Part shown: in pieces, positions 1-20,430 of the stretch
Layout of the letters: the number at the start of each line of letters is the position of its first letter
Position numbering within the stretch: the first letter of the stretch is position 1
IMG/VR virus record: IMGVR_UViG_3300021964_000356
Location: 1 to 29,124 of that record
Reading direction: 5' to 3' (one strand)
DNA length: 29,124 bases
Source of the DNA: a virus
The notes under the pieces: model-generated
The model's database searches: none
What the model was told of the DNA's origin: nothing
What the model saw: the letters and a program-made list of their open reading frames with translations, nothing else
Made by a program: the position numbers and the translations under genes

Positions 1-1254
1 TCTGGAGTATCAGGAAATTCAGGTACTTCAGGCACAAACGGTACTTCAGGAAACAGCGGAAACTCAGGTACTTCTGGTACTTCAGGCACAAACGGTACTT
101 CAGGAAATAGCGGAAACTCAGGTACTTCTGGTACAAATGGAACTGCAGGTACTTCAGGAACTACTGGTACAAGTGGTGTAGCAGGTCAAGCTGGCTTATC
201 ACGTACCTCAGGTACAACCGGTTCTTCAGGTACAAATGGAGCCAATGGAAATAGCGGTAACTCAGGAACTTCAGGTACAAACGGTACTTCTGGTTCTAAT
301 GGTACTTCAGGAAATAGTGGCAACTCAGGTACTTCTGGTACAAACGGTACAACAGGTAACTCAGGAGCATCTAGAACCTCAGGTACAAACGGTACTTCTG
401 GTACAGCAGGTAATACTGGTAATTCCGGAAACTCAGGCACCTCAGGTACAAATGGTACTTCGGGAAGCTCAGGTACAACGGGTACTTCAGGTGTTTCAGG
501 TCAATCTGGCTCTAGCAAAACATCAGGTACAAATGGTACTGGAGGTACATCAGGTGCCGCAGGTAATTCAGGTAACTCAGGAACTTCAGGTACAAACGGT
601 ACTAGTGGTGCTTCAAGAACTTCAGGTAACTCAGGAACTTCAGGTACAAATGGTACTAATGGTACTTCTGGAGCTATAGGTAACTCAGGAAATTCAGGTA
701 CTTCAGGAACAAACGGTACAAGTGGTACTTCAGGTAATTCTGGTACTAGTGGTACTTCAGGTACTGCAGGTACTTCAGGTACAACAGGTACAAGTGGTGT
801 AAGTGGTCAATCCGGTTCTAGTAAAACTTCAGGTACAAATGGTACTAGCGGTACTTCAGGTAATTCTGGTACTAGTGGTGATTCAGGAAATTCAGGTACA
901 AACGGTACTTCAGGAACAACAGGTGCATCAGGAGGAAATGGGGTATCCGGTAATTCAGGAACCTCAGGTACAAATGGTACTTCAGGTAATAGTGGTACTT
1001 CGGGCACTAATGGTACCTCAGGTAATTCTAGAACTTCAGGTACAAGTGGTGTTTCGGGTACTTCAGGTAATAGTGGTACATCTGGCACAAATGGTACTAA
1101 TGGTACCTCAGGTAACATTGGTAATTCAGGTAACTCAGGAACTTCAGGTACAAATGGTACTAGTGGAGCTGCTAGAACTTCAGGTAATTCTGGCACTAGT
1201 GGTACTTCAGGTACTGCAGGTACTTCTGGTAGTACCGGTACATCAGGTGTAGGT
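1..1254 (+). repeat. 9-bp-phased Gly-X-Y coding repeat with higher-order units
   Basis: Every ninth base begins a Gly codon (nucleotide positions equal to 4 modulo 9) through 139 triplets. Exceptions are Arg codons at 202, 373, 616, 1030 and 1174 and Lys codons at 517 and 823, each followed by Thr-Ser-Gly. Larger units also recur: a GQ(A/S)G-type block at 184, 499 and 805, and a block encoding NGTNGTSG then (A/N)IGNSGNSG at 649 and 1090. This points to growth by duplication and divergence. Such tracts are prone to length change by recombination and to assembly collapse. Confidence 0.9.
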
Positions 1255-1551
1255 TCAATGTCAGGTGGTTCATTTACTTCAGGTACTACTGGTACTGCCG
1301 GTACTTCGGGTGAATCTGCTACTGCAGGAGCTTCAATAAACGGTTCAAATGGTACTTCAGGTTCAGGTACTCCTGGTACAAGTGGTACTAGTGGACAAGG
1401 ACATACTTTTTCTTCTGCTACTCCAATGTCTGGTCCTGGTGGTTTTAGTGATAATAACGTCCCAGATGATGTAGGCAAAACTGCAGCCGGATGGGTTGAA
1501 GTTGTTATTTCAGGAACCAGTTATTACCTTCCAGCTTGGGTTAGGGAATAA
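1..1551 (+). CDS. Collagen-like Gly-X-Y fibre protein, 5' end outside window
   Basis: The frame is open from the first base to a TAA at 1549-1551 (516 codons seen), so the true start lies upstream. Codons 1-418 are Gly-X-Y triplets, mostly GTS, GTN and GNS, with no proline before codon ~455. Seven Gly slots carry Arg or Lys. After interruptions at codons ~419-450 a non-repetitive C-terminus of about 55 residues follows, ending in an aromatic-rich segment ([18 protein letters not shown]) that looks like a folded cap or trimerisation end. Collagen-like repeats are common in phage tail fibres, which supports a tail fibre or adhesin role; this is inferred. The next four genes are glycosyltransferases and a methyltransferase, so the Thr/Ser/Asn side chains may be glycosylated. 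Overlapping long frames on both strands here arise only from the stop-poor repeat. Confidence 0.8.
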
Positions 1552-1573
1552 TTTGGATATGTATTAATAGGTT

Positions 1574-1583
1574 ATTATATTTA
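1574..1583 (+). promoter_or_regulatory. Possible promoter motif TATATTTA before glycosylation cassette
   Basis: TATATTTA (1576-1583) lies about 30 bases before the start of the 900-residue glycosyltransferase, in the 54-base gap after the fibre gene. The same core recurs before other transcription-unit starts in the window. The function is inferred from position and recurrence only. Confidence 0.3.
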
Positions 1584-1605
1584 GTTACAATTACAAAACT
1601 AGTTT

Positions 1606-4308
1606 ATGAAAAAATTACTTTATGTAGCTCCTCACTTATCTACAGGAGGATTACCTCAATATTTAGTTAAAAAAGTAGAATTACTTAAAGACGAATTTGA
1701 GATTTATGTTGTAGAATGGGTAAACCATACAGGAGGAGTTTTAGTAGTTCAAAGAGATAAAATTCTTAATTTAGTAGATCCCGATAAATTTTTTGAATTA
1801 GGAGAAGATAAAATGAAGCTTATTGATATTATCAATGAGGTTCAACCCGATATTGTCCATTTAGAAGAAATTCCTGAATTCTTTATGGATTTTGAAGTTG
1901 CTAAAAAAATCTATACTAAAGATAGAAATTACATTATTGTAGAGACATCTCATGATTCATCTTACGACACAACTCAAAAACGTTTCCTACCAGATAAGTT
2001 CATGTTTGTGTCAGATTGGCAAATAAAACAATACGAAAATATTGATATACCTAAGGTATTAGTCGAATATCCTATTGAGTATATTGATCGCCCTAATCGT
2101 GAAGAGGCATTGCGTAAATTGGGCTTAAACCCGCAGAAAAAGCATGTATTACACGTTGGGTTATTCACACCTCGTAAAAACCAAGCTGAATTTTTTGAAT
2201 ATGCTCGTTCACTACCTGAGGTAGAATTTCATTGTGTAGGTAACCAAGCTCAAAACTTTAAATTTTATTGGGAACCCTTAATGAAGGATAAACCTGATAA
2301 TGTTACCTGGTGGAATGAAAGAACAGACGTAGATAATTTTTATCAATCTATGGATTTGTTCTTATTTACTTCTCGTGGGACCAATAATGATAAAGAAACA
2401 ATGCCTTTAGTAATCCGTGAGGCATTATCATACCAAATCCCAGTATTAATCTATAACCTTCCAGTATACTTAAATTATTTTGATAAATTTGATGGTTTAA
2501 ATTACTTAGAATTTGATAATTTTGATAAAAATTGTAATATAATCTTAGAAAATCTTGAATTACAACAACGTAGTATTAACCCTGAAGAGGAAGCTATCAT
2601 TATCTCAACATATCCAGTTACAGACAGTGTAATTAGTACTACAAAAGAATGTATTCAAAAAGCTAAACAAACAGGGCGTAAAGTTATTTTAACTTCTCAT
2701 GCTCCTATTCCTGAAGAATTACAAGAAGAAGCAGATTATTGTGTATATGATAAAAACAATATTTTAACTAAACATACTTTCTTTAGTAATTCTTGGTGGG
2801 ATAGTCCTGAAATTAAAGTAGACATTAATTTAAGAGCTCATGGTAACGACGTATATCACGGTCCTGCAGTTTATACTAACTATTATAATGGTACTGTATT
2901 AGCTGATAAATTAGGGTTTAAAAAAGTATTCTTCTTAAATTTTGATTATTTAATTAAAAATGGGGAAATTTTAGATACTGCTTCTAGAGTATTAGAAACA
3001 AAAAATACTTACTTATATCACTTTAATGAAATTGAAGGACCTTGTGTAATTACATGGTTTATGGGTATCAGACCTAAATTCTTCTTAGATACAATCCCAG
3101 CTATCCATACTGCTAAAGATTACGATGATTTAGTAATTAAATTTAGCTCTGAAAGTAACACATTAGAAAATTTATGGTGTAATGCTTTCTTTAAAAAGGA
3201 TAATATCTTTTATATTAAAGACGATACATTACAAAGGGATTTAGCTACTAAAGAACTTTTAGAAAAGTATATTGAATTTAGGGATTTCTCTAGAGTAGAA
3301 TATTTTACAATTTTGCCTACTACTAAAGGGAATTTTGCTCCATATTTACAAATTACTAATAGTAAAGATAGTAGAAAAGTTATCATTCAAGTTAAAGAAA
3401 ATGATGAAATTATTTTTGATACTAATTTTGAAGTAACTAATCGAATTACCTGGTTTGAAGATGTTTCTTACAATGTAAATAATCATTATACTGTTACTAT
3501 GGAAAGTTACGATTTGGTAACCGGCAAACTAGTAGATAGTAATATATTAGAATTAGATAAAGAATATTTACTTAATGTTTTACCTAATAATGGCTTAATT
3601 AATTATAAAAACCATAAGAATATTAAACTAATGCACCTGGTTACAGAACCAGAAACAAACGAAAAAGAAATTCGTTCAATAGAAAATATTAAAGATTTTT
3701 GTAATAAAACAGGTATTACATACGAACAACGTATAAATAAAATTTGGACAGAAACTCCTCCAAAAGATACTTGTAATAGACCTAATGATGTTCAAGATGT
3801 TCCTGGATATTATAAACTAGCCCCAGGCCATTATGGATGTTATAAAGCACATACAGATGCAATCTTAGCTGAAGATAATTCTAATTATGATTATGTTTTA
3901 GTATTTGAAGGTGATGTAATTGTTGAATCTGATTATAATGAACTATTTGAATCCCTAAAACGTTTTAGTAGATTAGCGAATGAACAAGATCAAGATATTA
4001 TTGGGTTTGGTAATCCGTGGAAAAATAGAAATTTAAATGGTCCCAAAATAGAAGACATTTATACAGATGTTACCCCATTTATCCCAGCTCAATCATATTT
4101 AATTAATAATAATAAGTTAGATAAAATTAAATTATTGATTACTACAACACCTTGGGATGCATTTGATATGTGGGTATGTAATGTAGCTCGTTTACGTGTA
4201 GGTACAGCAGAAAAAATTTATACTAAACACCTTCCAGGATTTAGTATTATTGAACAAGAATTTAAAGGAATGGACGAAAATAGTCCTGAAATATACGCAG
4301 CCGAATGA
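1606..4308 (+). CDS. Multidomain glycosyltransferase: GT4 + GT-A-like + GT25-like
   Basis: A 900-residue protein that appears to join three sugar-transfer modules. Residues ~1-320 resemble a GT-B, GT4-type enzyme: an N-terminal GG loop (STGGLPQ), a GLFTPRKNQ segment at ~185-193, and an E-x7-E motif (E264, E272). Residues ~325-530 begin with an ISTYP motif and look like a GT-A-like domain seen in phage and capsule loci; its activity is unknown. Residues ~540-650 may be a beta-rich linker. Residues ~675-900 resemble family GT25 (LPS and collagen galactosyltransferases): GHYGCYKAH at 741-749 matches the family GC..SH motif, and EGD at 768-770 matches the usual EDD metal/nucleotide-binding motif. 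It follows the collagen-like gene by 54 bases and overlaps the next gene by ATGA. It probably builds a glycan on a phage or host surface protein; donor and acceptor sugars cannot be told from sequence. Confidence 0.75.
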   Translation: MKKLLYVAPHLSTGGLPQYLVKKVELLKDEFEIYVVEWVNHTGGVLVVQRDKILNLVDPDKFFELGEDKMKLIDIINEVQPDIVHLEEIPEFFMDFEVAKKIYTKDRNYIIVETSHDSSYDTTQKRFLPDKFMFVSDWQIKQYENIDIPKVLVEYPIEYIDRPNREEALRKLGLNPQKKHVLHVGLFTPRKNQAEFFEYARSLPEVEFHCVGNQAQNFKFYWEPLMKDKPDNVTWWNERTDVDNFYQSMDLFLFTSRGTNNDKETMPLVIREALSYQIPVLIYNLPVYLNYFDKFDGLNYLEFDNFDKNCNIILENLELQQRSINPEEEAIIISTYPVTDSVISTTKECIQKAKQTGRKVILTSHAPIPEELQEEADYCVYDKNNILTKHTFFSNSWWDSPEIKVDINLRAHGNDVYHGPAVYTNYYNGTVLADKLGFKKVFFLNFDYLIKNGEILDTASRVLETKNTYLYHFNEIEGPCVITWFMGIRPKFFLDTIPAIHTAKDYDDLVIKFSSESNTLENLWCNAFFKKDNIFYIKDDTLQRDLATKELLEKYIEFRDFSRVEYFTILPTTKGNFAPYLQITNSKDSRKVIIQVKENDEIIFDTNFEVTNRITWFEDVSYNVNNHYTVTMESYDLVTGKLVDSNILELDKEYLLNVLPNNGLINYKNHKNIKLMHLVTEPETNEKEIRSIENIKDFCNKTGITYEQRINKIWTETPPKDTCNRPNDVQDVPGYYKLAPGHYGCYKAHTDAILAEDNSNYDYVLVFEGDVIVESDYNELFESLKRFSRLANEQDQDIIGFGNPWKNRNLNGPKIEDIYTDVTPFIPAQSYLINNNKLDKIKLLITTTPWDAFDMWVCNVARLRVGTAEKIYTKHLPGFSIIEQEFKGMDENSPEIYAAE

Positions 4309-5261
4309 GAATCTGTCACGTAGACCCTGCTTGTGGTTTAAGTATCCCTCCTAAAAATTGGGGTGCAATTGAAAAAATTATTTGGGAATTTGAACAAAAT
4401 CAAATTGCTTTAGGTCATGAATCTACTCATAGATTAGAGGGTCATATTTTACCTGGTGAATTTGATATTGTACATTGTCATGTAGCTAACCTAGCTAATT
4501 CTTTAGCATCAAGAGGTATTCCTTATATTTACCAATTACATGATCACCATGTAGTACATTGGGGTAAAGATTCTCATGTATATAAAGAAAACCTTAAAGC
4601 AATTGAAAACTCAGTTATCTCATTAGTACCAGCAAGATATTTAAAAGAATGGTTTGATAACCACCCTAAAATACAATATTTTGCTCATGGGGTTGATAGT
4701 AATGCTTTATATCCTAAAGAAAATTATAATACTCCTCCATTAGAACATAAATTACTTATGTTAGCTAATAATGGGTTAGGAGGTCATAACGGATATGATA
4801 GAAAAGGATTTACATTTGGGATTCAAACTGCAATGGCTCGTAATTTACCTATTACTATAGTAGGTCCTAAAAACAATGAAAATTACTTCAGAGAAAATCC
4901 TTGGACATTTGGCTATTCTAAATTAGATATTATTTGGGAACCCTCAAATGATGAGTTATTAGACATTTACCATGACCATACTATTTTCCTACACCCCTCA
5001 GAACTAGAAGCAGGGCATCCTAATTTAACATTATTAGAAGCTTCTGCTTGTGGTTTACCTATTTTAGGTTGGATTGAAATGGAAACTACATTTCATGGTT
5101 TATGGAGAGCCCCTCGTAATGTTCCTGCTTTAGTAGAAGGTTTAGATACTATAATTAAAGAGTACGAATGGTATTCTACTAATGCTCGTAAGACAGCAGA
5201 AGAGTTAAATTGGAGAAATCGTACTATTGAGTTAATGCAAATCTATGAATCAATTCTATGA
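4305..5261 (+). CDS. GT4-family glycosyltransferase
   Basis: A 318-residue GT-B fold enzyme predicted to transfer a sugar from an activated nucleotide donor in the cytoplasm. Family marks are an N-terminal MRICHVDPA strand with a proline/glycine loop (IPPKNWGAIEK) where many GT4 enzymes bind acceptor, HGVD at 128-131, and a donor-site segment with E235 and E245 followed by ASACGLPIL. The spacing between these two acidic residues is two longer than the usual E-x7-E. It is shorter than typical GT4 proteins (350-400), mostly in the N-terminal domain. The start overlaps the previous stop as ATGA, and its own stop overlaps the next start in the same way, so translation is probably coupled across the cassette. 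The donor sugar and acceptor are unknown. Confidence 0.8.
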   Translation: MRICHVDPACGLSIPPKNWGAIEKIIWEFEQNQIALGHESTHRLEGHILPGEFDIVHCHVANLANSLASRGIPYIYQLHDHHVVHWGKDSHVYKENLKAIENSVISLVPARYLKEWFDNHPKIQYFAHGVDSNALYPKENYNTPPLEHKLLMLANNGLGGHNGYDRKGFTFGIQTAMARNLPITIVGPKNNENYFRENPWTFGYSKLDIIWEPSNDELLDIYHDHTIFLHPSELEAGHPNLTLLEASACGLPILGWIEMETTFHGLWRAPRNVPALVEGLDTIIKEYEWYSTNARKTAEELNWRNRTIELMQIYESIL

Positions 5262-5896
5262 GACGAGATACTAGATTAGTTAATATTAGGAATACTCCAA
5301 TGATTATATTTGAAGGCCCAGAATGCATCTCTGATGATATTATAAAATACAGAGATTTTTGGGAATTTGAATTATTTACTAAATGGTGTGATTATTTCCC
5401 TGAAAATGGGTTTTATTTAGACATTGGGGCTAATATAGGTTCCCACTGCCTCCAGTTTAAAGAAAACTATCCTAACATACAAATTTGGGCATTTGAACCA
5501 TTTACTGAAAATTTTAATTTATTAAAACAAAATACTAAAAGATATTTTGATGTACATTGTTTTAATGTAGGTGTTGGAGAAAAAAATATAATGGTTTATT
5601 TTAATGATGGACACGAATCAAATAGTGGTGTAGTTCAAGTAGTAGATTATAGTAAAAATAGTAATTTAGTAGTAGCATTAGATAATTTAGAATTCCCATC
5701 TAAAGTAGATTTTATTAAATTAGATGTAGAAGGGTATGAAGTAAATGCTATAAAAGGTATGATTAATTTACTTAAAAAAGATAAACCCATGCTATGGATA
5801 GAAGATAATACTCATACCGCAGTACCATTTTTAGAACAATTAGGATATAAAGTTATAGAAAAAGAAGAATTAACTAATGATTATTTATTAGCATGA
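5258..5896 (+). CDS. FkbM-family SAM-dependent methyltransferase
   Basis: A 212-residue Rossmann-fold methyltransferase. The SAM-binding motif is DIGANIG (D55-G61), followed by the acidic-loop motif FEPFTENF (~residues 75-82) and the FkbM signature KLDVEGYE (K154 onward, with D156 and E158). FkbM enzymes are typically O-methyltransferases acting on sugars or polyketide hydroxyls. Sitting between a GT4 enzyme and a TibC-like protein glycosyltransferase, with ATGA overlaps on both sides, it most likely methylates a hydroxyl on the glycan made by its neighbours. O-methyl capping of surface glycans is known in other systems, for example the Bacillus collagen-like protein BclA. The substrate here is inferred only from context. 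Confidence 0.85.
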   Translation: MRRDTRLVNIRNTPMIIFEGPECISDDIIKYRDFWEFELFTKWCDYFPENGFYLDIGANIGSHCLQFKENYPNIQIWAFEPFTENFNLLKQNTKRYFDVHCFNVGVGEKNIMVYFNDGHESNSGVVQVVDYSKNSNLVVALDNLEFPSKVDFIKLDVEGYEVNAIKGMINLLKKDKPMLWIEDNTHTAVPFLEQLGYKVIEKEELTNDYLLA

Positions 5897-7095
5897 AAGA
5901 AGTTTTAATCCACGAATACAACAATACAGAAGCCCTATATAAAGATTTTAGAGAACCTTCTAATAATTTTATAGTTAATTTTGTTAAAGGTGCTTGTTTA
6001 GAAGTCCAAGGTCCTCAAGAAAAAGAATACCATGTTAAGTTCTTTAACCATGATACTGGTGAATTAATTCATTCAACTGATATTAAAAATAATATGTGGA
6101 CACGTACTAGTGTTACTTATTTTATTAATTGGAGGGTAGAAGTATTTGATAAAGAAGATAATACTCTAGCTTTTAGACATTTATACGATGCTAAAGATAG
6201 ACGTGTTTACATTCATTTAGATTCAAGTGCTATTGGTGATACATTAGCTTGGTTCCCATATGTAGAAGAATTTAGAAAAAAACATCAATGTAAACTAATT
6301 GTATCTACATTCCATAACGATTGGTTCCAGAAAAAATACCCAAATTTAGAGTTTATAAAACCAGGAACTCAAGTATACGATTTATATGCTATGTACGGTA
6401 TTGGTTGGTTCTACCAAGAAAATAGTCAAGATGTAGATCTTAATCAAACACCAATTGATTTTAAACAACATCCTTTACAAGCCACAGCATATCGTATATT
6501 AGATCTTGATCCTGTTGAGGTTAAACCTATTATAGATATTCCTAATAGTAAAAGAAAAATTAAAGATAAATACGTTGTAATCGCTCCCCATGCTTCAGCA
6601 CATGCTAAATACTGGAATTACCCAGGCGGATGGCAAAAAGTAATTGATTACTTAAATGATAAGGGGTATAAAGTAGTTATGATTTCTAGTGAACCCTGGG
6701 GAGATGAATGGCATGATTCTAAACTAGGAGGAACTTTAAAAGGTATAGTTAATAGGACAGGTAACATTTCTCTTAAAACACGAATGAATGAAATAGTTAA
6801 TGCTGAAGCTTTTATTGGTTTAGGTAGTGGGTTATCATGGATGTCTTGGGCTTTAGGAACCCCAACAGCACTTATTTCTGGATTTAGTTATGATTGGACT
6901 GAATTTGAAGACTGTGAACGTATTTCTGCACCTGAAGGGTTATGTAGTGGATGCTTTAACAGAGAATGGTTAAACCCAGGTGATTGGGAATGGTGTCCTG
7001 ATCATAAAGATACTGAAAGACAATTTGAATGTACAAAAAATATTACTCCTGAACGAGTAATTTTATCTTTAAACAAAATGCTTAATATTTATTAA
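5893..7095 (+). CDS. TibC/Aah-like (BAHT) protein O-heptosyltransferase
   Basis: A 400-residue protein resembling bacterial autotransporter heptosyltransferases, which transfer heptose from ADP-heptose onto Ser/Thr of repetitive surface proteins. Residues ~1-100 form a beta-rich N-terminal region. GDTLAW at 115-120 contains D116, plausibly equivalent to the TibC catalytic aspartate. Residues ~205-225 carry the family-like HASAHAKYWNYPGGWQ segment, followed by a strand and SSEPWGDEW. Near the C-terminus C351, C354, C368 and C380 form C-x2-C-x13-C-x11-C, like the TibC iron finger, though with shorter spacing. It is the last gene of the coupled glycosylation set. The natural acceptor is plausibly the Ser/Thr-rich collagen-like fibre upstream. 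Whether the sugar is heptose depends on the host making ADP-heptose, which cannot be seen here. Confidence 0.8.
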   Translation: MKEVLIHEYNNTEALYKDFREPSNNFIVNFVKGACLEVQGPQEKEYHVKFFNHDTGELIHSTDIKNNMWTRTSVTYFINWRVEVFDKEDNTLAFRHLYDAKDRRVYIHLDSSAIGDTLAWFPYVEEFRKKHQCKLIVSTFHNDWFQKKYPNLEFIKPGTQVYDLYAMYGIGWFYQENSQDVDLNQTPIDFKQHPLQATAYRILDLDPVEVKPIIDIPNSKRKIKDKYVVIAPHASAHAKYWNYPGGWQKVIDYLNDKGYKVVMISSEPWGDEWHDSKLGGTLKGIVNRTGNISLKTRMNEIVNAEAFIGLGSGLSWMSWALGTPTALISGFSYDWTEFEDCERISAPEGLCSGCFNREWLNPGDWEWCPDHKDTERQFECTKNITPERVILSLNKMLNIY

Positions 7096-7096
7096 T

Positions 7097-7336
7097 ATGG
7101 AAAAAAATATTCTCACCACAGAAGAGTTACAAAATTTAAAACAATTAAGAGAAGAAAACTTGTTATTAATTAATCAATTAGGAGATTTAGAATTTAACTA
7201 CTTAATTGAAAAAGAAAAATTAATAGAAAAAGTAAAAGAGGTTGATATTAAAAACACCTCTTTAAGCAAATCCATTAAAGACAAGTACGGAGAAGGTTAT
7301 ATTAATATTGAAACAGGTGAGGTTACAAAAGAGTAA
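7097..7336 (+). CDS. Small coiled-coil protein of unknown function
   Basis: A 79-residue hydrophilic protein starting one base after the heptosyltransferase stop. Residues ~7-58 are rich in Leu, Glu and Lys with heptad-like spacing (LKQLREENLLLINQLGDLEF), predicting a coiled coil. The tail has a YGEGYINIETGEV motif that may form a small beta hairpin. No signal peptide, membrane helix or enzyme motif is seen. Proteins of this type occur in T4-like marine phages, but the role is not known to me. It could be a chaperone or assembly factor, or belong to either flanking module. Confidence 0.65.
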   Translation: MEKNILTTEELQNLKQLREENLLLINQLGDLEFNYLIEKEKLIEKVKEVDIKNTSLSKSIKDKYGEGYINIETGEVTKE

Positions 7337-7386: not shown

Positions 7387-9519
7387 ATGGCAGAAACATT
7401 AGTATCACCAGGGGTATTAGCGAGAGAGACAGACCAGTCGTTCCTTACCCAATTACCTGTTCAAGTAGGCGCCGCTATTATCGGTCCCACAGTAAAAGGT
7501 CCAGTAAATATTCCTACAGTAGTTAGCACCTATAGCGAATACCAAAACATTTTTGGTACTACTTTCGTTAGTGCTAGCAACTCTAATTCATTCTTAACTT
7601 CAATTGCAGCTTATAATTACTTCAACGCAGGAGGTGATTCATTACTAGTAGCAAGAGTAGTAACAGGTTCTTACACTTCTGCTACTTCTTCTATTAACGC
7701 CGGGGTTCCAGTAGGAACTAAATTAGCTACAGGTAGTGGAGATTTAAGTCTAACATCAGGATTTGGTGGGCCAAGTGGTGTAGAAGACGAATTAAGATTC
7801 ACCTACTCAGGAACTACTTATAGATTCGTAGCAGCCGACCCAACAAATGGACTACCAGCTGATTCAGCTCCATTATACTTTGTGGCTACAGGTTCAGATA
7901 CAGCTGCTTATGTAGGATTCTTAGCTACTAAGATTTCTGAATCTTTAAGTTCTTCATTATTAACAGGTGTAGATGAAGGATCATCAGTGCTAGCAATTTC
8001 TGCTTCTGCCGCTGGTACTGCTCTTAATGGTATAACTATCCAAACAGGTTCAGCTTCTTCATTCGTAACGGCATTTACTTTAGGTGGTGGTGCCCAAACC
8101 GAATCTATTACAGAAGCTTTCCAATTAGAAACAATTGGTGAAGGTCTTATCATGAATAGTACCTGTACAGAAGCTTCAGATGGTGCATTGTTAGATTCAG
8201 GTTCTAGTGATAATATTAGATGGTCTGTAACTAATAGAAACACAGGTTCAGGTACTTTCACACTTATTGTTAGAAGAGGTGATGATAAGCAAAACGATCA
8301 AAACGTTTTAGAAACTTACAACAACTTATCTTTAGATCCTTATTCACCAAACTTTATTTCAAATGTAATTGGTGACCAAAAACCAGTATTAGATACTTCA
8401 GATTCTAGCAACCCTTATATCGCAGTTTCAGGTTCATATCCTAATGGTTCAAACTTCGTAAGAATTAAATCAGTTAGTTTATTAACCCCTAATTACTTAG
8501 ATAACTCAGGAAATCCAAAAGCGGCATTTACATCTTCTATCCCTTCATTAGGATCAGGCTCATTCGGTGGAGCTGAAGGTGCTGCTTTAGGTACATTTGG
8601 AACTACAGGTGCTACACCAGTATACGAAGCTATTACAACAACTGATAAAGGAGCTCAAGGTATTGCAGCAGCAGATTACACTGATATGTTAAATCTGTTA
8701 TCTAACCAAGATGCTTATCAATACAATGTATTATCTCTCCCAGGTGTAATTGATCAAGGTGCTTATGCTACAACAATTACAACTGCAATTAACAATACTC
8801 AAGTAAGAGGAGATGCATTATTAGTAACGGATGTTGCTACTTATGGATCTACCGTAACTACAGTAGTAAACGAAGCATCAGCAAGAGATACTTCATATGC
8901 AGCAACTTACTGGCCATGGTTAATGGTACAAGATCCTGACTTAGGAAGAAATGTTTGGATACCTGCCTCAACAATGATCCCTGCAGTATATGCTTTCACA
9001 GATAACGCTTCAGCTCCTTGGTTCGCTCCTGCTGGTTTAACTAGAGGTGCATTAGGTGGAGTAATTAAACCTGAAAGAATTTTAACTCAAGGACAAAGAG
9101 ATACATTATACGATGGTAAAGTAAACCCAATTGCTCAATTCCCAGGAACTGGTGTTGTAGTATACGGTCAGAAAACTTTACAAACTAAAGCATCTGCTTT
9201 AGATAGAGTAAACGTAAGAAGATTATTGATTGCTGTTAAGAGATATATTTCTCAAATTGCAAATAACTTAGTATTCGAACAAAATACTCAACAGACTAGA
9301 AATTCATTCTTAGCAGCTGTAGAACCTTATTTAGAAACAATTCAACAACAACAAGGTTTATACGCGTTTAGAGTGATTATGGATGACAGCAATAATACTC
9401 CGGATGTAATTGATAGAAACCAATTAATTGGTCAAATTTATTTACAACCAACTAAAACTGCTGAATTCATTTACTTAGATTTCAACATCTTACCAACAGG
9501 AGCTACCTTCCCAGCGTAA
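7387..9519 (+). CDS. gp18: Contractile tail sheath protein (gp18-like)
   Basis: A 710-residue protein, slightly longer than T4 gp18 (659). It begins with the typical sheath N-terminus (SPGV at ~7-10, then RETD and a QVGAAIIGPTVKGP segment). The C-terminal part (~500-710) carries the conserved sheath core, including WPWLMVQDP, a PAVYAFTDN-type segment, GVIKPERILTQGQRDTLY and the closing KTAEFIYLDFNILP strand. Residues ~100-330 are a less conserved Ser/Thr/Gly-rich surface insertion. Copies polymerise around the tail tube and contract on infection. The tube gene follows 47 bases later with a matching upstream motif. The leader has no Shine-Dalgarno sequence; the start is chosen because homologous sheaths begin just before SPGV. 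Confidence 0.95.
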   Translation: MAETLVSPGVLARETDQSFLTQLPVQVGAAIIGPTVKGPVNIPTVVSTYSEYQNIFGTTFVSASNSNSFLTSIAAYNYFNAGGDSLLVARVVTGSYTSATSSINAGVPVGTKLATGSGDLSLTSGFGGPSGVEDELRFTYSGTTYRFVAADPTNGLPADSAPLYFVATGSDTAAYVGFLATKISESLSSSLLTGVDEGSSVLAISASAAGTALNGITIQTGSASSFVTAFTLGGGAQTESITEAFQLETIGEGLIMNSTCTEASDGALLDSGSSDNIRWSVTNRNTGSGTFTLIVRRGDDKQNDQNVLETYNNLSLDPYSPNFISNVIGDQKPVLDTSDSSNPYIAVSGSYPNGSNFVRIKSVSLLTPNYLDNSGNPKAAFTSSIPSLGSGSFGGAEGAALGTFGTTGATPVYEAITTTDKGAQGIAAADYTDMLNLLSNQDAYQYNVLSLPGVIDQGAYATTITTAINNTQVRGDALLVTDVATYGSTVTTVVNEASARDTSYAATYWPWLMVQDPDLGRNVWIPASTMIPAVYAFTDNASAPWFAPAGLTRGALGGVIKPERILTQGQRDTLYDGKVNPIAQFPGTGVVVYGQKTLQTKASALDRVNVRRLLIAVKRYISQIANNLVFEQNTQQTRNSFLAAVEPYLETIQQQQGLYAFRVIMDDSNNTPDVIDRNQLIGQIYLQPTKTAEFIYLDFNILPTGATFPA

Positions 9520-9566: not shown

Positions 9567-10055
9567 ATGGCAATAGTAGACGTAAATACAATGTTTTTCA
9601 CTCCGTTTGAACCTAAGGTTCAGAATAGATTTATTTTTAATCTAGGTGGTGTTCCTGCTTTTATGATTAAAGGTCTATCTGCAGTAACTGTAGATCAGGG
9701 TGAAATTAAACTTAATCATATCAATGTTTATCGTAAAATTAAAGGTAGAGCCAACTGGGGTGATATCACGATGACATTATATGATCCGATCACTCCTTCT
9801 GGTGCACAAGCCGTAATCGAATGGTTTAGACTACACCACGAATCAGTAACAGGTAGAGATGGTTATTCAGATTTTTATAAGAAAAACCCAACTATCCAAG
9901 TTTTAGGTCCTGTTGGTGATATTGTTTCTGAATGGGTAATCAAAGGTGCATTTATTAAGTCTGCTAATTTCGGTGAATATAACTGGGATACTGATGCTGG
10001 TGCTGTAAACTTAACAGTAACGTTAGGTATGGATTATTGTGTATTAAACTTCTAA
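9567..10055 (+). CDS. gp19: Tail tube protein (gp19-like)
   Basis: A 162-residue protein, almost the same length as T4 gp19 (163). It has the family layout: N-terminal FEPKVQNRFIFNLGGVPAFMIKG, then a beta strand/loop, IKGRANWGDITMTLYDPITPSGAQAVIEWFR, and a closing beta segment (SEWVIKGAFIKSANFG to the C-terminal LTVTLGMDYCVLNF). Hexameric rings stack to form the inner tube through which DNA passes. It lies directly after the sheath gene, the usual order, and before a strong intrinsic terminator, so sheath and tube form a short late unit. Confidence 0.95.
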   Translation: MAIVDVNTMFFTPFEPKVQNRFIFNLGGVPAFMIKGLSAVTVDQGEIKLNHINVYRKIKGRANWGDITMTLYDPITPSGAQAVIEWFRLHHESVTGRDGYSDFYKKNPTIQVLGPVGDIVSEWVIKGAFIKSANFGEYNWDTDAGAVNLTVTLGMDYCVLNF

Positions 10056-10076
10056 AAAAGTTTACATATTTCTTTA

Positions 10077-10108
10077 AAGAGAGCTTGGCTTTGTTCAAGC
10101 TCTTTTTT
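10077..10108 (+). terminator. Rho-independent terminator after tail tube gene
   Basis: Stem AGAGCTTG (10080-10087) pairs perfectly with CAAGCTCT (10096-10103) around an 8-base loop, followed by a run of T to 10108. The A-rich 5' flank can extend pairing with the T run. It lies 22 bases after the tube stop codon and 48 bases before the next start. Confidence 0.85.
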
Positions 10109-10155
10109 ATCGTTATATGTATACTCGATATAAAGTTATAACTAAATAAAAATTT

Positions 10156-10899
10156 ATGAGCGAATTTAAATTTCCAACTGAAACAGTTGAATTACCCTCT
10201 AAAGGTTTTTTCTACGCCGATGGTCATCCCCTAAGAGACGGTAAAGTAGAAATGAGATACATGACTGCTAAAGATGAAGATATCTTAACTAATCAAAATT
10301 ATATTAGAGAAGGAGTCGTATTAGATAAATTACTACAATCTATGGTTGTAGCTCCTGATTTTGACTTAAAAGATTTAATTGTAGGAGATAAAAATGCTTT
10401 ATTAGTAGCAGCTCGTATTTTAGGATATGGAGCTAATTATACTTTTACGGTTAGTGGTAAATCTGAAAGTATGGATCTTTCTCAATGTGAAAACATTAAT
10501 AATAATTTTGAGGGATTAACAGATGGGAAAAATGAATTTACATTTGTAACCCCTACTACTAAAACTAAATTAACCTTTAAATTATTAACGGGTCATGATG
10601 AAGTTAAAATTAATAAAGAAATTGAAGGTTTAGCTAAAGTAAATAAAGGTGGAAGTGATTTCCTTACTAGACTTCGTTACATCATTACATCTGTAAATGA
10701 TGATTCTTCATCTGAAGTTATTTCTGAATTTGTTAACGATTATTTTTTAGCTACTGATTCTAGAGAATTTAGAAAGCATTACAAGAACTGCATGCCTGAT
10801 GTAGATCTGTCCTACGAGGGGGAGGACGGTCGATTTCGCAGCGCTCCCATTGGACTTGACTTTTTTTGGCCTAACCTCGAAGATAGCGCTGAGTTATAG
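10156..10899 (+). CDS. gp26-type tail/baseplate assembly protein (upstream frame)
   Basis: A 247-residue protein resembling the T4 gp26-type base plate family: N-terminal TVELPSKGFFYADGHPL, then VEMRYMTAKDEDILTNQNYI (residues ~31-50), a beta segment with a conserved acidic/glycine pattern, and a C-terminal PIGLDFFWP motif (~232-240). It sits immediately upstream of the tape measure gene and overlaps a second frame there, the arrangement of tail assembly chaperones (lambda G/GT type). It may therefore be a chaperone that coats the tape measure during tail assembly rather than a virion component. A terminator precedes the gene; the start has no Shine-Dalgarno sequence. Confidence 0.75.
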   Translation: MSEFKFPTETVELPSKGFFYADGHPLRDGKVEMRYMTAKDEDILTNQNYIREGVVLDKLLQSMVVAPDFDLKDLIVGDKNALLVAARILGYGANYTFTVSGKSESMDLSQCENINNNFEGLTDGKNEFTFVTPTTKTKLTFKLLTGHDEVKINKEIEGLAKVNKGGSDFLTRLRYIITSVNDDSSSEVISEFVNDYFLATDSREFRKHYKNCMPDVDLSYEGEDGRFRSAPIGLDFFWPNLEDSAEL

Positions 10900-11179
10900 G
10901 AAAACCCTATTCCAGCAGATTCACGATATTATATTTCATGGTAATGGGGGGTATGATTTTTATACCGTCTATAATATGCCTATTTGGCTTAGAAAATTTA
11001 CCTTTAATGAAATAAAAAAATATTATGAAAAACAAGCTGAAGACTCTAAACAATCTCAATCTGATCCTAATAAAACTAGTATTATAGGGGAAGATGGAAA
11101 AATAAACCGCCCGGCATTTGCTGAATTAAGCAAACAATACCAGCCTCAAAACAAAAATAAAGCTCCAAAGTATTCATAA
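10850..11179 (+). CDS. Downstream frame of tail assembly chaperone (T-like extension)
   Basis: An open frame of about 109 codons overlapping the gp26-like gene by 50 bases. Its only initiation codon in the overlap is a TTG at 10850 with no ribosome-binding site, so it is probably made mainly as a frameshifted C-terminal extension from 10868 onward. The sequence contains QIHDIIFHGNGGYDFYTVY then MPIWLRKFTFNEIKKYYEKQ, followed by a charged, Gln/Lys-rich tail. This pattern (short helix, glycine loop, MP..LR, amphipathic helix) is like the T portion of tail assembly chaperones in other phages. It ends at a terminator hairpin that overlaps its stop codon, and the tape measure gene follows 40 bases later. 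If real as a fusion, it would recruit tail tube subunits to the tape measure. Confidence 0.6.
   Translation: MDLTFFGLTSKIALSYRKTLFQQIHDIIFHGNGGYDFYTVYNMPIWLRKFTFNEIKKYYEKQAEDSKQSQSDPNKTSIIGEDGKINRPAFAELSKQYQPQNKNKAPKYS
10861..10867 (+). other. Candidate programmed frameshift site (T7 run)
   Basis: Seven consecutive T bases occur where the gp26-like frame overlaps the downstream frame. The downstream frame is +1 (equivalently -2) relative to the first. A tRNA-Phe on the second TTT codon could re-pair perfectly after a -2 slip, or skip one base. Either route joins ...PIGLDFF to GLTSKIAL... and gives a product of about 340 residues. The downstream frame has only a TTG start without a ribosome site. 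Confidence 0.6.
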
Positions 11180-13789: not shown

Positions 13790-14158
13790 ATGAGTTTAAA
13801 AGATTTAGTAGATAACGCAAACACAAAGAGCGCTTTCCAAGCTTTATGGTCTCCCTCACCTACATCAGCATTAGGGCTAAAGAATACTACAAAACAATCA
13901 GAAATGCATTCTGATAATTCAGGTACAGCTGGAAAAGGATATTCATTATCAGGTGATCCTACCAAAAATGCTTTACCTAAAAATCAATATTTTAGGTACC
14001 AAATTAATAAGACTGTATCCATTCCTAATCCTTCTACTATTGATAGCAATACAGGAGTCTCTACTACATACACTACCCACTACCCAGGTAATGGTCAGTT
14101 AGGTACAGGTAGATATTCACAAAATGCTCCTGAAGGTAAAACTCCTGGAGGATTATAA
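13790..14158 (+). CDS. Hypothetical small tail/baseplate protein
   Basis: A 122-residue protein I do not recognise. It starts with a short helix (SLKDLVDNANTKSAFQALW) and continues with Ser/Thr/Asn/Gly-rich, low-hydrophobicity sequence, suggesting an extended or loop-rich structural protein. It has no membrane segment, cysteine or catalytic motif. It lies between the tape measure and the tube/baseplate-junction gene, with only 10 bases to the latter, so a role in baseplate or tail-tip assembly is likely by position only. Confidence 0.65.
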   Translation: MSLKDLVDNANTKSAFQALWSPSPTSALGLKNTTKQSEMHSDNSGTAGKGYSLSGDPTKNALPKNQYFRYQINKTVSIPNPSTIDSNTGVSTTYTTHYPGNGQLGTGRYSQNAPEGKTPGGL

Positions 14159-14168
14159 TTTATAGAAT

Positions 14169-15905
14169 ATGCCATTAATAAATTCCTTAAATCAAACAGA
14201 TTTTAGGACTTTAAAATTTTCTAATTATACTGACACTCCCCCTACAGTAATAGTTCCTATTCCTGACTCAAAAGGAGAACAAAAACCAGTAGGAATTCCA
14301 GGGTACAATATTTTACCCCCTTTTGGAGGACGTGGAGGAAATGTAACAGATTATTTTAGAGGTGGAACTGGCTTACCTAAAAGTATAATTGCTGATGAAG
14401 TAAGAATTGGTAGCTTATTTATTCAAAATAACACCCCTCAAACTAAAGGTACTTTATTTGTTGCTAAACAAAATCAATTATCTCTTGCAAGTGTTAGAAC
14501 CCAAGCCGTAAACCCAACCTCCGTTGTTAATGATGGTATTTATAACCCTGCAAATACTTTATTAAGTGTAGCAGGCATTTCCGAGGGGATTTTTATCCCT
14601 AAACAAACTCGTTTAAAAAAATATTCACAACTTATTACTAACGATGGAGAAGAAGACAATTACTCCATCTCAGGAAATGATACTAACAGATTAGTACAGT
14701 TAGTAGCAACTAAAATAGGTAAGGATGATGTTGAAAATACCTCTAAAAGAAATACTATTAGCAAAAATGAAAATGCTATACTAGGATACACAGGAGGCCC
14801 AGGTTCAGCATTAGGTGTTGGTAGAACACGACTTTATTTTGCAGGTTATGATTTAAAATCAGGACGTACAAATACTTACAACCCTAACAATGATCAAACC
14901 GGGACTTTAACTTTAACTTCCCAAGAAATATTAGCTGCATCTTCTTCTTTAATGTCCTCTACTATAGGAAAATATGACATTAATCCTAAAGTTTATGATT
15001 TTAGAAAGACATTACGTACTAAATTAAGTGGATCCTCTAATATAATTTCAATTTCACCCGATTACGACACATATAGTAGAGAAAATAATTTTAACTTAGG
15101 AGATCCTGGTAACCCTACATATAATAGATACAATCCTAATAATGGAATTGGGTATAGTGGTAGTGTAAAAGCCTTAGATAAAATTACTGCTTTTCCTATG
15201 TACAGAGCTAAAAATGCAAGTAATGGTAGTGCTACAATCCCCTTAAAAGATATAGTTAAGTTTAGAATTGCTTCTATTGATAATAATGATCCTAATTTTA
15301 AAGTGTTTACTCATTTTAGAGCCTTTATTAATAATTTTAGTGATACTTATACCCCCGAATGGAATGGGGTTAAATATGTGGGTAGAGGAGATTCTTTATA
15401 TAGATATGGAGGTTTTACTAGAACTATGCAATTAGAATTTGAGGTAGTAGCCCAATCAGTTCAAGAACTGCTTCCTATGTTTTCAAAATTAAACTTTATA
15501 GCTTCTAATACTATGCCCGACTATTCAGACGCGGGGTATATGAGAGCTCCTTTAATTGAACTTACTATAGGAGATTATCTAGTTGACCATCCTGGGTTTA
15601 TTAGTAATTTAACTTATACCCCTAATTTAGAAGCTGGGTTTGATATTAATATTCAGGATGAGAATACCAATAAAGAACTTCCTAGAATGATGAAAGTAAG
15701 TATGGGCTTTACCCCAATCCCAGACTTTATTCCAAAAAAACTTAAAGGTAATTTGGTAGAACAAACAGATGTAACTACATTATCTTCTAAAGAAGTAGGA
15801 ACCGACCCAAAAGGATATATTGAAAAATTTGAACACAATTATTTTGGTAATTTAACTACAGAAGCTTACGTAGAATCAGATACTCCAACAGAATCAGATG
15901 AATAG
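14169..15905 (+). CDS. Baseplate/tail-tube junction protein (gp48/gp54-like)
   Basis: A 578-residue structural protein. Residues ~1-350 are loop-rich with many Asn/Gly/Thr and Pro. Residues ~375-540 contain a pattern seen in tube-initiator baseplate proteins: FRAFINNFSDTYTPEW, then YVGRGDSLYRYGGFTRTMQLEFEVVA, then LPMFSKLNFIASNTMPDY and APLIELTIGDYLVDHPGFISNLTY. This alternation of strands and a long helix resembles the tail-tube fold, so the protein probably caps the hub and starts tube polymerisation like T4 gp48/gp54. It overlaps the LysM-like gene by 8 bases. The exact T4 counterpart is uncertain. Confidence 0.65.
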   Translation: MPLINSLNQTDFRTLKFSNYTDTPPTVIVPIPDSKGEQKPVGIPGYNILPPFGGRGGNVTDYFRGGTGLPKSIIADEVRIGSLFIQNNTPQTKGTLFVAKQNQLSLASVRTQAVNPTSVVNDGIYNPANTLLSVAGISEGIFIPKQTRLKKYSQLITNDGEEDNYSISGNDTNRLVQLVATKIGKDDVENTSKRNTISKNENAILGYTGGPGSALGVGRTRLYFAGYDLKSGRTNTYNPNNDQTGTLTLTSQEILAASSSLMSSTIGKYDINPKVYDFRKTLRTKLSGSSNIISISPDYDTYSRENNFNLGDPGNPTYNRYNPNNGIGYSGSVKALDKITAFPMYRAKNASNGSATIPLKDIVKFRIASIDNNDPNFKVFTHFRAFINNFSDTYTPEWNGVKYVGRGDSLYRYGGFTRTMQLEFEVVAQSVQELLPMFSKLNFIASNTMPDYSDAGYMRAPLIELTIGDYLVDHPGFISNLTYTPNLEAGFDINIQDENTNKELPRMMKVSMGFTPIPDFIPKKLKGNLVEQTDVTTLSSKEVGTDPKGYIEKFEHNYFGNLTTEAYVESDTPTESDE

Positions 15906-16158
15906 ATATAGTACTTCAAAGACACCTAAATACCCCGAAATCCCTTTATCTCAGGGAGATATTTACGTTATATCTCAAAAAGGAGACAGATTTGATATTT
16001 TATCTCAACAATATTATAGTAATCCTAAATATTGGTGGGTTATTTCTATTGCTAATGAAAATTTGGCCCAAAATTCTTTATTTATACCTGAAGGCCAACA
16101 AATAAGAATCCCATCAAATCTAGACAGTATCCTGTTTCAATATAATGAATTAAATTAA
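15898..16158 (+). CDS. LysM-like baseplate protein (gp53-like)
   Basis: An 86-residue protein with a LysM-type core: GDIYVISQKGDRFDILSQQYYSNPKYWWVISIAN then an IPEGQQIRIP turn. This pattern is shared by T4 gp53-type baseplate wedge proteins and phage tail X-type proteins, where the LysM fold is structural rather than a free peptidoglycan binder. The N-terminal YSTSKTPKYPEIPLS segment is also typical of gp53-like proteins. Its start codon lies inside the end of the preceding gene (8-base overlap), and the hub gene follows 8 bases later, so the three are likely co-translated baseplate components. Confidence 0.75.
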   Translation: MNRYSTSKTPKYPEIPLSQGDIYVISQKGDRFDILSQQYYSNPKYWWVISIANENLAQNSLFIPEGQQIRIPSNLDSILFQYNELN

Positions 16159-16166
16159 AATTAGTT

Positions 16167-19100
16167 ATGGGAAATATATTAGGAGAACCAATTAAAGGTC
16201 AAATACAAAAACAAATTGAAGTTCGCCAAAAATATTATGGTGATAATAAATCTTCAATTGATGATCCAGCTGAAAACGAAAAGTTAAGAAATCTTAGAAT
16301 TCAATTAAACCAACAACGTTCTCCTTTTATTCGTTTATCTTCAAGTGTTAATATAGATGATGAAAATGTATTATTAAAAGCTGGTATTCCTGCTGGGTAT
16401 AAAAATAATGTATTAGCTAAATCTTTAGTATTATTTAATGGTTCTTCTTTATGGAATAACTCAAAATTTATTCAACGAGGAGGATTAAATAGAAGTACTA
16501 GTACCTTTAGAGTAGGTGATGATACTTTAGGAGCTTATGGTTTAGGGGGAGTAGGAGAGGAAAATGTCTTAACTGATTTTGGTCAAGTTCCTATGCCTGG
16601 GATTAAAGACATTCAAGTACAATACAAAAATAGAGGATCTTTAAGACAAGCCTCTATCTCATTAACAGCATACAATATAACTCAATTTAACGCTATTGAT
16701 TTACTTTATCTTAGATTAGGTTATACTGTATTATTAGAATGGGGTAATAATGTATATATAAATAATGATGAAGAATTAGAAACCCAAAAAACCCCAACTT
16801 ATTATAAAAAATTTATAGATGGTGGTTTAGATTATTACCAAATGTTAGCTGAAATTGAAACAGCTAGAGTATCCTCTCAAGGAAATTATGATGCTATGAT
16901 AGGTAAAATTACTAATTTTAATTGGAATTTTACTAAAGAAGGTAATTATGAAATAACTATAAATTTAGTTAGTATTGGGGATGTTATAGAATCTATTAAA
17001 GTTAATTCTATTTCATATAATGTTGTAGGATCCTCATATGAAAACAAATTAAAATCTTTACAAGCAGAAGTTCGAAACTTAGAAGAAAAGGCGATTCTAC
17101 ATAGACAGGCAGCACGTTACTACGGTGGGTATCAATATACAGGTGGACTTCTTGATGCTCAAAGATACGAAGAAATTACAGGATATAAAACCGCTATTAA
17201 TGTCCAGATTGATTTTACAATCGATGCAAGTGGCAACTTTATCCCAGCGGAAGAATCAAATTTTTCCCGACCCCTTTATCTTCAAACTGATGATCCCGCT
17301 GGCCTAGAACAATACTCTGAAGAACTTGATCAATATTATGAGAACATAAAAGAATTTGCTAAAAATATTGACGCAACTCCTGAAAGTCCTTTAGGAGATG
17401 CTAGAAAACGACTACAAGACTTTCTTGATAGCAATGTAGATGAAGGTTTAAGTTCTAAAGCATATTTAGAAGCTAGTTCTGTTTTGTCTAATATAGGATC
17501 GGTTCTTAATAGTGACATATCATACTATGAAGCCGCTAGTCAATTTTTAGTCCGTAAAAGTGGAGATACATTATCAAGATCCGGAAATAATTACCCTATA
17601 GACTATGCTAGAATAAGATTTTCGGGAGTTAATGAAGGTTCTGAAGACCAAGATGGACTTTTTGATAAAGAATATTATGTTAGATTAGGAACTCTTTTAC
17701 AATATCTTCAAGAATATGTATGTTTCGTTTATGTTCAAGATGGAAAAGGTACCCCTGCTTTAACATTTGATATAGACCAAAATACTAATCTTATTCCTAT
17801 TAATGCTTCAACATTCCCATCTGACCCCAGAATTTGCATTTTTGATACAGGTGAGTTTACATTTTATGGGCAAGGCTATAATTTGTATACGGGAACTGAT
17901 AAAAGTACAGGAGGAGCTTCAAATTTGCTTTCAACCTTTATAAAAGAGGTTGAAACTGAACCCGTTTCTTATGTAGGAAGATTAATGAATTTATATATTA
18001 ATGTAAAATATATTCTAAAAAAAGTTAATAGTGGGTATAAAGAAGAAGGGGGTGTTTCACTTTTTGATTTATTAAGATATATATGCGATGGAATTAATAA
18101 AAATCTTGGAGGATTAAATAAACTCGAACCTGTTATTGATGATACTACTAATATAGTTTATTTAATAGATCAATCTCCTATAGCTAAAGAAACTTTAGAT
18201 AAATTAGGATACACACAAAATTTTGATCCTAATAAAACGGCTACATTTCAAATTTATGGTTTAAATCCTTTAATAAATGGAGAATACGAAGGAAGTTTTG
18301 TTAAAGATTTTAATATTAAAACTGAGATTTCCCCTAAATTAGCTACTCAATTAAGTATTGGAGCTCAAGCTATTGGTGCCTCCATAGCTGAAAATGCAAC
18401 CGGATTACAATGGTTCAACCAAGGAATTATAGATAGAATTTCTCCTAAAAAAGTAGATGATATAGATATTGATAAAGAAGCTGAAGAATTAGGTATAACC
18501 CAAACCTTATCTGCTAAGTTACTAGGCCAAAAGGATTTAACCTGGGCGATTTTAGAGAATGTTGAAGATAGAACAGTAACCCCCTCCCAGATGAATCAGT
18601 TAATATCTTTAAATAAAACTTTCCAAAATTTACTTTCTACTGAAATATCGGCCCAAACTAAATCTCCTACTCCACAAGGGACAGGTTTTATTCCTATTAA
18701 TTTATCCCTTACTATGGATGGTCTTTCTGGAATAAAGATTTATAATACGTTTGGTGTAAATTCTAAATTTTTACCTCCTAACTATGGTAGCAATTTACTT
18801 TTTATTGCTACTAAATTAAATCATAAAGTAGATTCGAGTGGTTGGGAAACTACTTTAGATTCTTTAGTTATTCCTTCTTCTGTAGGTAATCAAAACGCAG
18901 AATCACTTATTCAAAAAGGAGATGGAACAACACCAAAACCAAAACACACCGATACCGAAACCGATCTTCATATAGTAGGAGACGATTACACATACTACTC
19001 AGGAAAAGAAAGTCAATTTAGAAAAATAGTCCCTACTAGTATTATCCTTCATATTACAGTATCTAATCATACAGCTAAAAGAACAGTTGAATCCGTAAAT

Positions 19101-19807: not shown

Positions 19808-20398
19808 ATGTACTACCCAAAATCCCAAATAAAATCTAATTTATACACCTCAGGAGGAGAATATGCTATTATTGGTAGTGGTCAAGAGTACATGGGGTAT
19901 TATTATAAAGTCTCTACTGGACAATTCTTTACAGGTAAAGTCCCTGGAGATGGGCCCAATGATGAACTTCAACCTACTACGTTTGATCTTGAAGAATTAG
20001 GAGGAGATGCTAGATCTTATTCTCCTAAAATTCATGTTCACATTAATAACACTCTTCCTAATTCGGGAGATGATCGATACTTACCTATTACATCTCACCC
20101 ACACCCAACAGACGATGATTATAGAGTAGGATCATTCCAAAGGTATTTCGCCAAAAATATTAGTGGACCAGTTTATATAGAAATCTCAAAAGAAACTTAT
20201 AATAATTTAAATGATCGAGTTAATAACATATACTGGGAAATTTATACTACGTTAAGTTTGTTCTGGAGGTTACAAGGAACTAAAGAAGAAGTAGCTCGTG
20301 CTAATAAAAATTCTATTGAATTAGTAGAACAAAAAAACAGGATTATAGGACTTGGAGCTTATTTAGATTATAATTATCTTCAATACTATAAAGAGTGA
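19808..20398 (+). CDS. Conserved-looking phage structural protein, role unknown
   Basis: A 196-residue protein starting two bases after the hub stop. The N-terminal half is beta-rich with a repeated Tyr/Gly pattern (YYPKSQIKSNLYTSGGEY and MGYYYKVSTGQFFTGKVPGDGPN), which I recall from virion proteins of other marine T4-like phages. The middle is His/Asp-rich (HVHINN, SHPHPTDDDYR). The C-terminal ~50 residues are a charged helix. By position it is the last gene of the tail block, so a baseplate or wedge-associated role is likely. No enzymatic motif is seen. Confidence 0.6.
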   Translation: MYYPKSQIKSNLYTSGGEYAIIGSGQEYMGYYYKVSTGQFFTGKVPGDGPNDELQPTTFDLEELGGDARSYSPKIHVHINNTLPNSGDDRYLPITSHPHPTDDDYRVGSFQRYFAKNISGPVYIEISKETYNNLNDRVNNIYWEIYTTLSLFWRLQGTKEEVARANKNSIELVEQKNRIIGLGAYLDYNYLQYYKE

Positions 20399-20416
20399 TA
20401 TATTAAAAAATAGGTT

Positions 20417-20427
20417 GTATATTTAAA
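20417..20427 (+). promoter_or_regulatory. Possible promoter motif before DNA polymerase gene
   Basis: GTATATTTAAA lies 4-14 bases before the polymerase ATG, in the short gap between tail and replication genes. The TATATTTA core matches that at 1576 and 22157. Its closeness to the start codon would imply a leaderless or near-leaderless message, so this may be coincidental AT-richness. Confidence 0.25.
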
Positions 20428-20430
20428 TAA

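Follow-up and report, generated by a model that had tools for sequence, protein, structure and literature searches.

Which protein is modified by the glycosyltransferases that some phages encode beside a collagen-like fibre gene? The question is raised by the IMG/VR virus record IMGVR_UViG_3300021964_000356, a linear fragment analysed in its entirety (29,124 bases, hereafter the window), which begins with a Gly-X-Y fibre gene followed by genes for a glycosyltransferase fusion, a GT4 glycosyltransferase, an FkbM-family methyltransferase and a relative of the bacterial autotransporter heptosyltransferases (BAHT) TibC and Aah (Table 1). The gene order was as the first-pass annotation had described it: a Thr/Ser/Asn-rich fibre gene, then four enzyme genes coupled through three ATGA overlaps (4305, 5258 and 5893), with a gap of 54 bases between the fibre open reading frame (ORF) and the fusion gene. 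Our reading, to which we assign a probability of about 0.7, is that the five genes form a fibre-decoration unit in which the TibC-like enzyme heptosylates the fibre, the glycosyltransferases extend the glycan and the FkbM enzyme methylates it, giving a glycan-coated virion fibre.

Both the identity of the TibC-like enzyme and the conservation of its active site are directly established. It scored 306.9 bits (E 2e-91, cut-off 200) with TIGR04414, the NCBI equivalog for Aah/TibC, and a profile match with the TibC crystal sequences (4RAP/4RB4) reached E 6e-83, while the lipopolysaccharide (LPS) heptosyltransferase profiles RfaQ and heptosyltransferase I gave 36 and 26 bits, respectively. Residues named for TibC are Asp110, Thr226, Lys230, Arg286, Trp305 and Cys339/342/358/370 (PMC4358343), to which Asp116, Ser235 (a conservative change), Lys239, Arg297, Trp316 and Cys351/354/368/380 correspond in the window enzyme. 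Asp116, Lys239, Trp316 and all four cysteines of the iron finger were invariant across 44 aligned relatives, and their counterparts are all needed in TibC (PMC4358343). No autotransporter partner of the AIDA/TibA type lies beside the gene, whose neighbour is the Gly-X-Y fibre; since this partner is new, we file the enzyme in the BAHT family by sequence and do not claim that it modifies autotransporters.

About 94% of the triplets in the fibre ORF are in Gly-X-Y register, the commonest being GTS (47), GNS (27) and GTN (20), and the ORF matches the Pfam family Collagen (PF01391, E 1.9e-51). It is open at its 5' end because the contig ends within the repeat; its C-terminus is the same as that closing a complete 1467-aa fibre in a related locus (L071), and in six relatives the fibre ORF ends in Peptidase_S74, a chaperone typical of tail fibres and tailspikes. 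N-glycosylation at N-G-T sequons was also considered and dropped, no N-glycosyltransferase having turned up among the cassette genes.

Family profile scores agreed with the earlier assignments of the GT4 enzyme, the FkbM methyltransferase (TIGR01444, 78.7 bits, cut-off 37.7; PF05050, 48.5 bits, cut-off 22.7) and the TibC/Aah-like enzyme. The fusion had been described as GT4/GT25-like; the protein has at least three parts, the additional one being a GT-A-like domain followed by a beta-sandwich, with weak Foldseek matches to a GH2 beta-sandwich, glycogenin, LH3 and KdsB. The GT25-like domain of the window protein scored 17.5 bits with PF01755, under the Pfam cut-off of 24; 13 of the 15 aligned members, the window included, matched this family at E ≤ 0.05 (best 2e-5), and the top Foldseek matches of its predicted fold were human COLGALT1 (the best PDB match, TM 0.56) and Mimivirus R655. 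In PHROGs neither the fusion nor the TibC-like protein had a family, and the GT4 enzyme matched families only weakly. A counterpart of this GT4 enzyme forms a fusion with the TibC-like enzyme in phage LR756501 (735 kb; L003).

A scan with the window TibC-like protein found 225 phage places, of which 80 were examined; clustering at 90% identity gave 38 TibC groups, including three loci from a scan with the tail sheath. A Gly-X-Y ORF was present within the examined stretch in 24 of these groups, and in ten of the remaining 14 groups the upstream sequence is no longer than 2.9 kb, so that 24 of the 28 groups with enough flank have a nearby Gly-X-Y ORF. The fibre gene lies either upstream in the same orientation, before the sheath gene, or downstream on the other strand, close to the major capsid gene (L007, L008, L063, L078 and others). 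As a control we used relatives of the sheath of Flavobacterium phage immuto whose loci lack TibC and extend 5 kb or more upstream: Gly-X-Y ORFs occurred in 10 of 32 loci, with 34–55% Ser/Thr and none reaching 60%, whereas TibC-linked fibres have mostly 54–80% Ser/Thr and are almost free of Pro. The p-values for these differences (2e-5 for presence of a Gly-X-Y ORF, 0.004 for composition) are to be read as indicative, since phage relatives share ancestry and independence is overstated. The reverse comparison started from contigs selected with a DNA pattern that encodes five G-[ST]-[ST] triplets, 17 of 50 of which carried a TibC homologue, against one of 45 contigs chosen by a composition-blind Gly-X-Y pattern; that single contig was 78% Ser/Thr, and none of the 39 Gly-X-Y contigs under 60% Ser/Thr had TibC. 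The first-pass annotation had called for a search for co-occurrence of Gly-X-Y fibre genes with both BAHT and FkbM genes: BAHT genes are strongly associated, in related phages, unrelated phages and bacterial chromosomes, while FkbM is optional, and its status as a required member was rejected because many cassettes lack it. The absence of an association in related phages, named there as a refutation, was not what we found.

Among the distant phages, LR756501 encodes a GSSGTSG structural protein divergently from a GT4/GT25-like fusion and the GT4-TibC fusion, and Microcystis phage Mel-JY01, the one cultured phage in which we found a TibC-like enzyme, carries it as a fusion with glycosyltransferase domains next to a collagen-like ORF of 1016 aa. 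The latter ORF (PP395634.1, L002, 2-3052, plus strand) runs opposite an annotated minus-strand coding sequence (739-2298), and the record probably annotates the wrong strand here. In Methylomicrobium sp. RS1, a Methylococcaceae metagenome-assembled genome (MAG) and an Arenicellales MAG, TibC lies beside a secreted or lipoprotein-like GTS-repeat protein, without the other cassette genes. Five of 151 Methylococcales genomes have a high-scoring TibC of the window type, and all five enzymes adjoin a secreted GTS/GTN-repeat protein, again without other cassette genes; these repeat proteins are candidate surface glycoproteins. Four lower-scoring TibCs from three Methylococcales genomes form a separate branch in the tree (support 100/100), and at least two of them (L416 and L417) adjoin AIDA-type repeat proteins, the known substrate class. 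Partners of the AIDA type were seen for this second branch alone, a split which suggests that each branch tends to be paired with one type of repeat.

Genes for heptose precursors were compared in 36 phage records, 18 with TibC and 18 without detected TibC. HldE1-like kinases were found in 8 of 18 TibC phages and in none of the controls, GmhA in three records, every one with TibC, and the precursor genes combined in 9 of 18 against 0 of 18 (p 0.001), where in six controls (L086, L154, L147, L163, L476 and L481) TibC was sought in the flanks alone and not in the whole record. In NCBIfam, HldE1 was the best family for three phage proteins (306–324 bits, cut-off 345), one protein exceeded the GmhA cut-off and one the HldE2 cut-off. 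Weak HldE2 (TIGR02199) matches were not used, as they are also present in controls and may be general nucleotidyltransferases, and a "cytidylyltransferase-like" gene near the Mel-JY01 cassette was ruled out as a heptose enzyme by NCBIfam. Together with the TIGR04414 match and the conserved donor and catalytic residues, the co-occurrence of precursor genes with TibC lends support to heptose as the putative donor, as first proposed.

Because the pairing recurs in unrelated phages and in methanotrophs, it is very probable that the phage adds sugars to its own fibre. The collagen-like protein would be a virion fibre, and ADP-heptose would come from the host or, in part, from phage-encoded synthesis. 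While the fibre is still in the cytoplasm, the TibC-like enzyme would transfer heptose to Ser/Thr residues within the G-T/S-S repeats; the glycan so started would then be lengthened by the GT4 and GT-A/GT25-like enzymes and O-methylated by the FkbM enzyme, so that the finished virion bears a glycan-coated fibre. The recurring pairing and the Ser/Thr-rich repeat of the partner are direct observations; that the fibre is modified, which sugar is donated, in what order the steps run and what is gained (stability, adsorption or shielding) is inferred.

Besides the shared ancestry of the phage loci, several points weigh against fibre decoration. The glycan on the fibre is deduced and not observed, and the fibre of the window, its own start missing, has no S74 domain and no Pfam match at its C-terminus. 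The equivalent of TibC Arg286, kept in the window, is replaced in most methanotroph enzymes and in 4 of 33 phage enzymes, so the donor may vary. Two thirds of the Ser/Thr-rich Gly-X-Y contigs, most of them fragments, lack TibC, and the 636-kb phage LR756504 and L138 have TibC without a nearby Gly-X-Y ORF. In L076 the neighbour of TibC is a YadA-like, Ser/Thr-rich NTASG repeat protein; near other TibC genes the visible Gly-X-Y tract is Pro/Gln-rich with 4% Ser/Thr (L022) or has 20% (L032) or 24% (L039) Ser/Thr.

The NTASG repeat protein would fit a target other than the collagen-like fibre, whether the sheath, the capsid or some other virion protein, or a second fibre that is not collagen-like. 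So would the position of the cassette, which immediately precedes the sheath gene in most loci and elsewhere follows the major capsid gene. However, neither sheath nor capsid is constant beside TibC; what both arrangements and the chromosomal cases share is a neighbouring Gly-X-Y ORF, whose Ser/Thr content tracks TibC, and we regard such a target as unlikely. It is well known that phages can alter host surfaces with their glycosyltransferases, and the GT25 and GT9 families include LPS enzymes, so the cassette might instead, after infection, modify a host surface glycan or protein (e.g. LPS) and exclude superinfecting phages, its adjacency to the fibre being incidental. This is rather improbable given that the TibC-like enzyme falls in a protein-modifying equivalog and not with the LPS heptosyltransferases (307 bits against 36 and 26), and that the pairing with Ser/Thr-rich Gly-X-Y repeats persists in another gene order, in huge phages and on bacterial chromosomes. 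Neutral hitch-hiking, by which hypervariable fibre loci gather glycosyltransferase and repeat genes by chance, would suit the mosaic cassettes with their optional FkbM, carbamoyl-, sulfo- and 2-oxoglutarate (2OG)-oxygenase genes and the abundance of both partners among large aquatic phages, but is very improbable in view of the sheath-matched controls, none of whose ten Gly-X-Y ORFs is as Ser/Thr-rich, the five-in-five adjacency in Methylococcales without other cassette genes, and the co-occurrence of heptose kinase and isomerase genes with TibC.

Besides FkbM types, some loci carry genes for a carbamoyltransferase, a sulfotransferase or a 2OG-Fe(II) oxygenase of the prolyl-hydroxylase type. 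In a scan with the oxygenase, 31 of 60 loci had Gly-X-Y ORFs, mostly with Pro at X and with TibC present or absent, while TibC-linked fibres without an oxygenase contain almost no Pro. Oxygenase loci are no more Pro-rich than general Gly-X-Y proteins (median Pro 0.12 in the composition-blind set), which supports availability of the substrate and not specificity; hydroxylation of phage collagen by this enzyme is possible. We tentatively propose, at somewhat less than even odds, that a separate TibC branch in phages and bacteria is specialised for collagen-like G-S/T-S/T repeats, and that aquatic phages tailor fibres in a mix-and-match fashion by O-heptosylation, extension, methylation, carbamoylation or sulfation and, where Pro is present, prolyl hydroxylation.

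The window enzyme shares with the BAHT systems (the GT9-like TibC/Aah with TibA/AIDA-I) full-length homology, the catalytic Asp, the donor Lys and Trp, the four-Cys iron finger and a Ser/Thr-rich repeat neighbour; it differs in being phage-encoded, in having as partner a Gly-X-Y fibre rather than a strand-loop-strand autotransporter, in two changes (donor-site Thr226 to Ser, and Pro300 to Gly) and in belonging to a branch separate from the AIDA-associated enzymes. Glycosylation of the capsid has been suggested for mycobacteriophage Maravista (PMC11256854). There too phage glycosyltransferases are proposed to act on virion proteins, whereas here other enzymes, a collagen-like target, Gram-negative hosts and a proposed heptose donor are involved. 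Collagen glycosylation by GT25 enzymes (COLGALT1, Mimivirus R655) resembles the proposed pathway in the GT25-like fold, the collagen-like substrate and the 2OG-Fe(II) oxygenase of some cassettes, but sequence similarity is marginal, no Lys hydroxylation is implied by the phage cassette, and the proposed linkage is to Ser/Thr. In the Bacillus exosporium, BclA carries O-glycans on Thr of its Gly-X-Y repeat, and their terminal sugar is O-methylated. The repeat and both modifications are those proposed for the phage fibre, although BclA is a spore protein and not a virion protein, and its enzymes and sugars are others.

Downstream of the cassette, from 7387 onward, the window encodes T4-like myovirus functions (tail sheath, tube, baseplate hub, a DNA polymerase fragment, a RecA-like protein, a helicase and ribonucleotide reductase), read in part from translations, and through the sheath gene the cassette can be assigned to the structural module of the virion. 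At the corresponding site phage immuto encodes a tail fibre that is not collagen-like and lacks any annotated glycosyltransferase, so that the cassette represents either an insertion or a replacement when compared with immuto. The same cassette is present on a contig within a Winogradskyella MAG, and a Bacteroidota host is therefore likely. The position of the small ORF between cassette and sheath is conserved, in cassette-free phages as well. A 1212-aa protein of the baseplate region (16167-19805) has a C-terminal amidase_2 domain and is probably a cell-wall-degrading tail tip. LR756501.1 encodes 109 copies of the hexapeptide DPYGEE, mostly as DPYGEExW, whereas the reversed pattern used as a control gives 0; the copies lie close to the ends of many small hypothetical proteins, and the motif is possibly a sorting, targeting or processing tag.

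Table 1. Features of the window and of related sequences, with their coordinates.
Feature	Sequence	Position	Strand	Remarks
Gly-X-Y collagen-like fibre gene, 5' end cut by contig	window	1..1551	+	repeat tract ~1-1400, then C-terminal segment
Three-part glycosyltransferase fusion, 900 aa	window	1606..4308	+	
Fusion part 1, GT4 (GT-B) domain	window	1606..2595	+	PF00534 E 9e-14
Fusion part 2, GT-A-like domain then beta-sandwich	window	2596..3585	+	AlphaFold2 (AF2) pLDDT 86.5
Fusion part 3, GT25-like domain	window	3586..4305	+	motifs GHYGC..AH, FEGDV; AF2 pLDDT 83.4
GT4 glycosyltransferase, 318 aa	window	4305..5261	+	PF00534 E 5e-7
FkbM-family methyltransferase, 212 aa	window	5258..5896	+	PF05050 E 1.4e-12; TIGR01444
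TibC/Aah-type protein O-heptosyltransferase (BAHT), 400 aa	window	5893..7095	+	TIGR04414; TibC structure profile
Codon of Asp116, equivalent of TibC catalytic base Asp110	window	6238..6240	+	
Iron-finger region, Cys351, 354, 368, 380	window	6943..7032	+	
Small coiled-coil-like ORF, 79 aa, between cassette and sheath	window	7097..7336	+	
Tail sheath gene	window	7387..9519	+	phrog_23 E 7e-68; 48% identity to Flavobacterium phage immuto sheath
TibC homologue beside a GTS-repeat protein	Methylomicrobium (L168)	9848-11107		
Secreted GTS-repeat proteins paired with TibC homologues	Methylococcales	L168 11217-11918; L410-L414		
HldE1-like kinase, ADP-heptose pathway	phage L518	1483-2469		
GmhA-like isomerase, ADP-heptose pathway	phage L515	1402-1971		
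HldE2-like adenylyltransferase, ADP-heptose pathway	phage L509	1438-1926		
2OG-Fe(II) oxygenase, prolyl-hydroxylase type	phage L033	4059-4652		relatives L449-L507
DPYGEE examples	LR756501.1 (L003)	284-607, 13993-14307, 14621-15199, 15758-16093, 17985-18428, 18406-18813, 19839-21083		

BAHT enzymes have so far been described as modifiers of bacterial autotransporter adhesins, and we found no literature link between them and phage or collagen-like proteins in a search that reached few subscription journals. Judged from the genes, a BAHT enzyme acting on a collagen-like fibre would be a form of phage virion glycosylation not previously known. The pairing in phages (225 TibC-like matches in one scan), together with that of GTS-repeat proteins in methanotrophs, provides a substrate hypothesis for a large set of unannotated enzymes, and the enzyme-fibre pairs are amenable to ordinary co-expression in Escherichia coli. 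If the hypothesis is true, glycosylated tail fibres would be common in aquatic phages, which would matter for adsorption, stability and antigenicity; the wider tailoring pathway, if it exists, would be a prokaryotic-virus counterpart of the hydroxylation and glycosylation of animal collagen.

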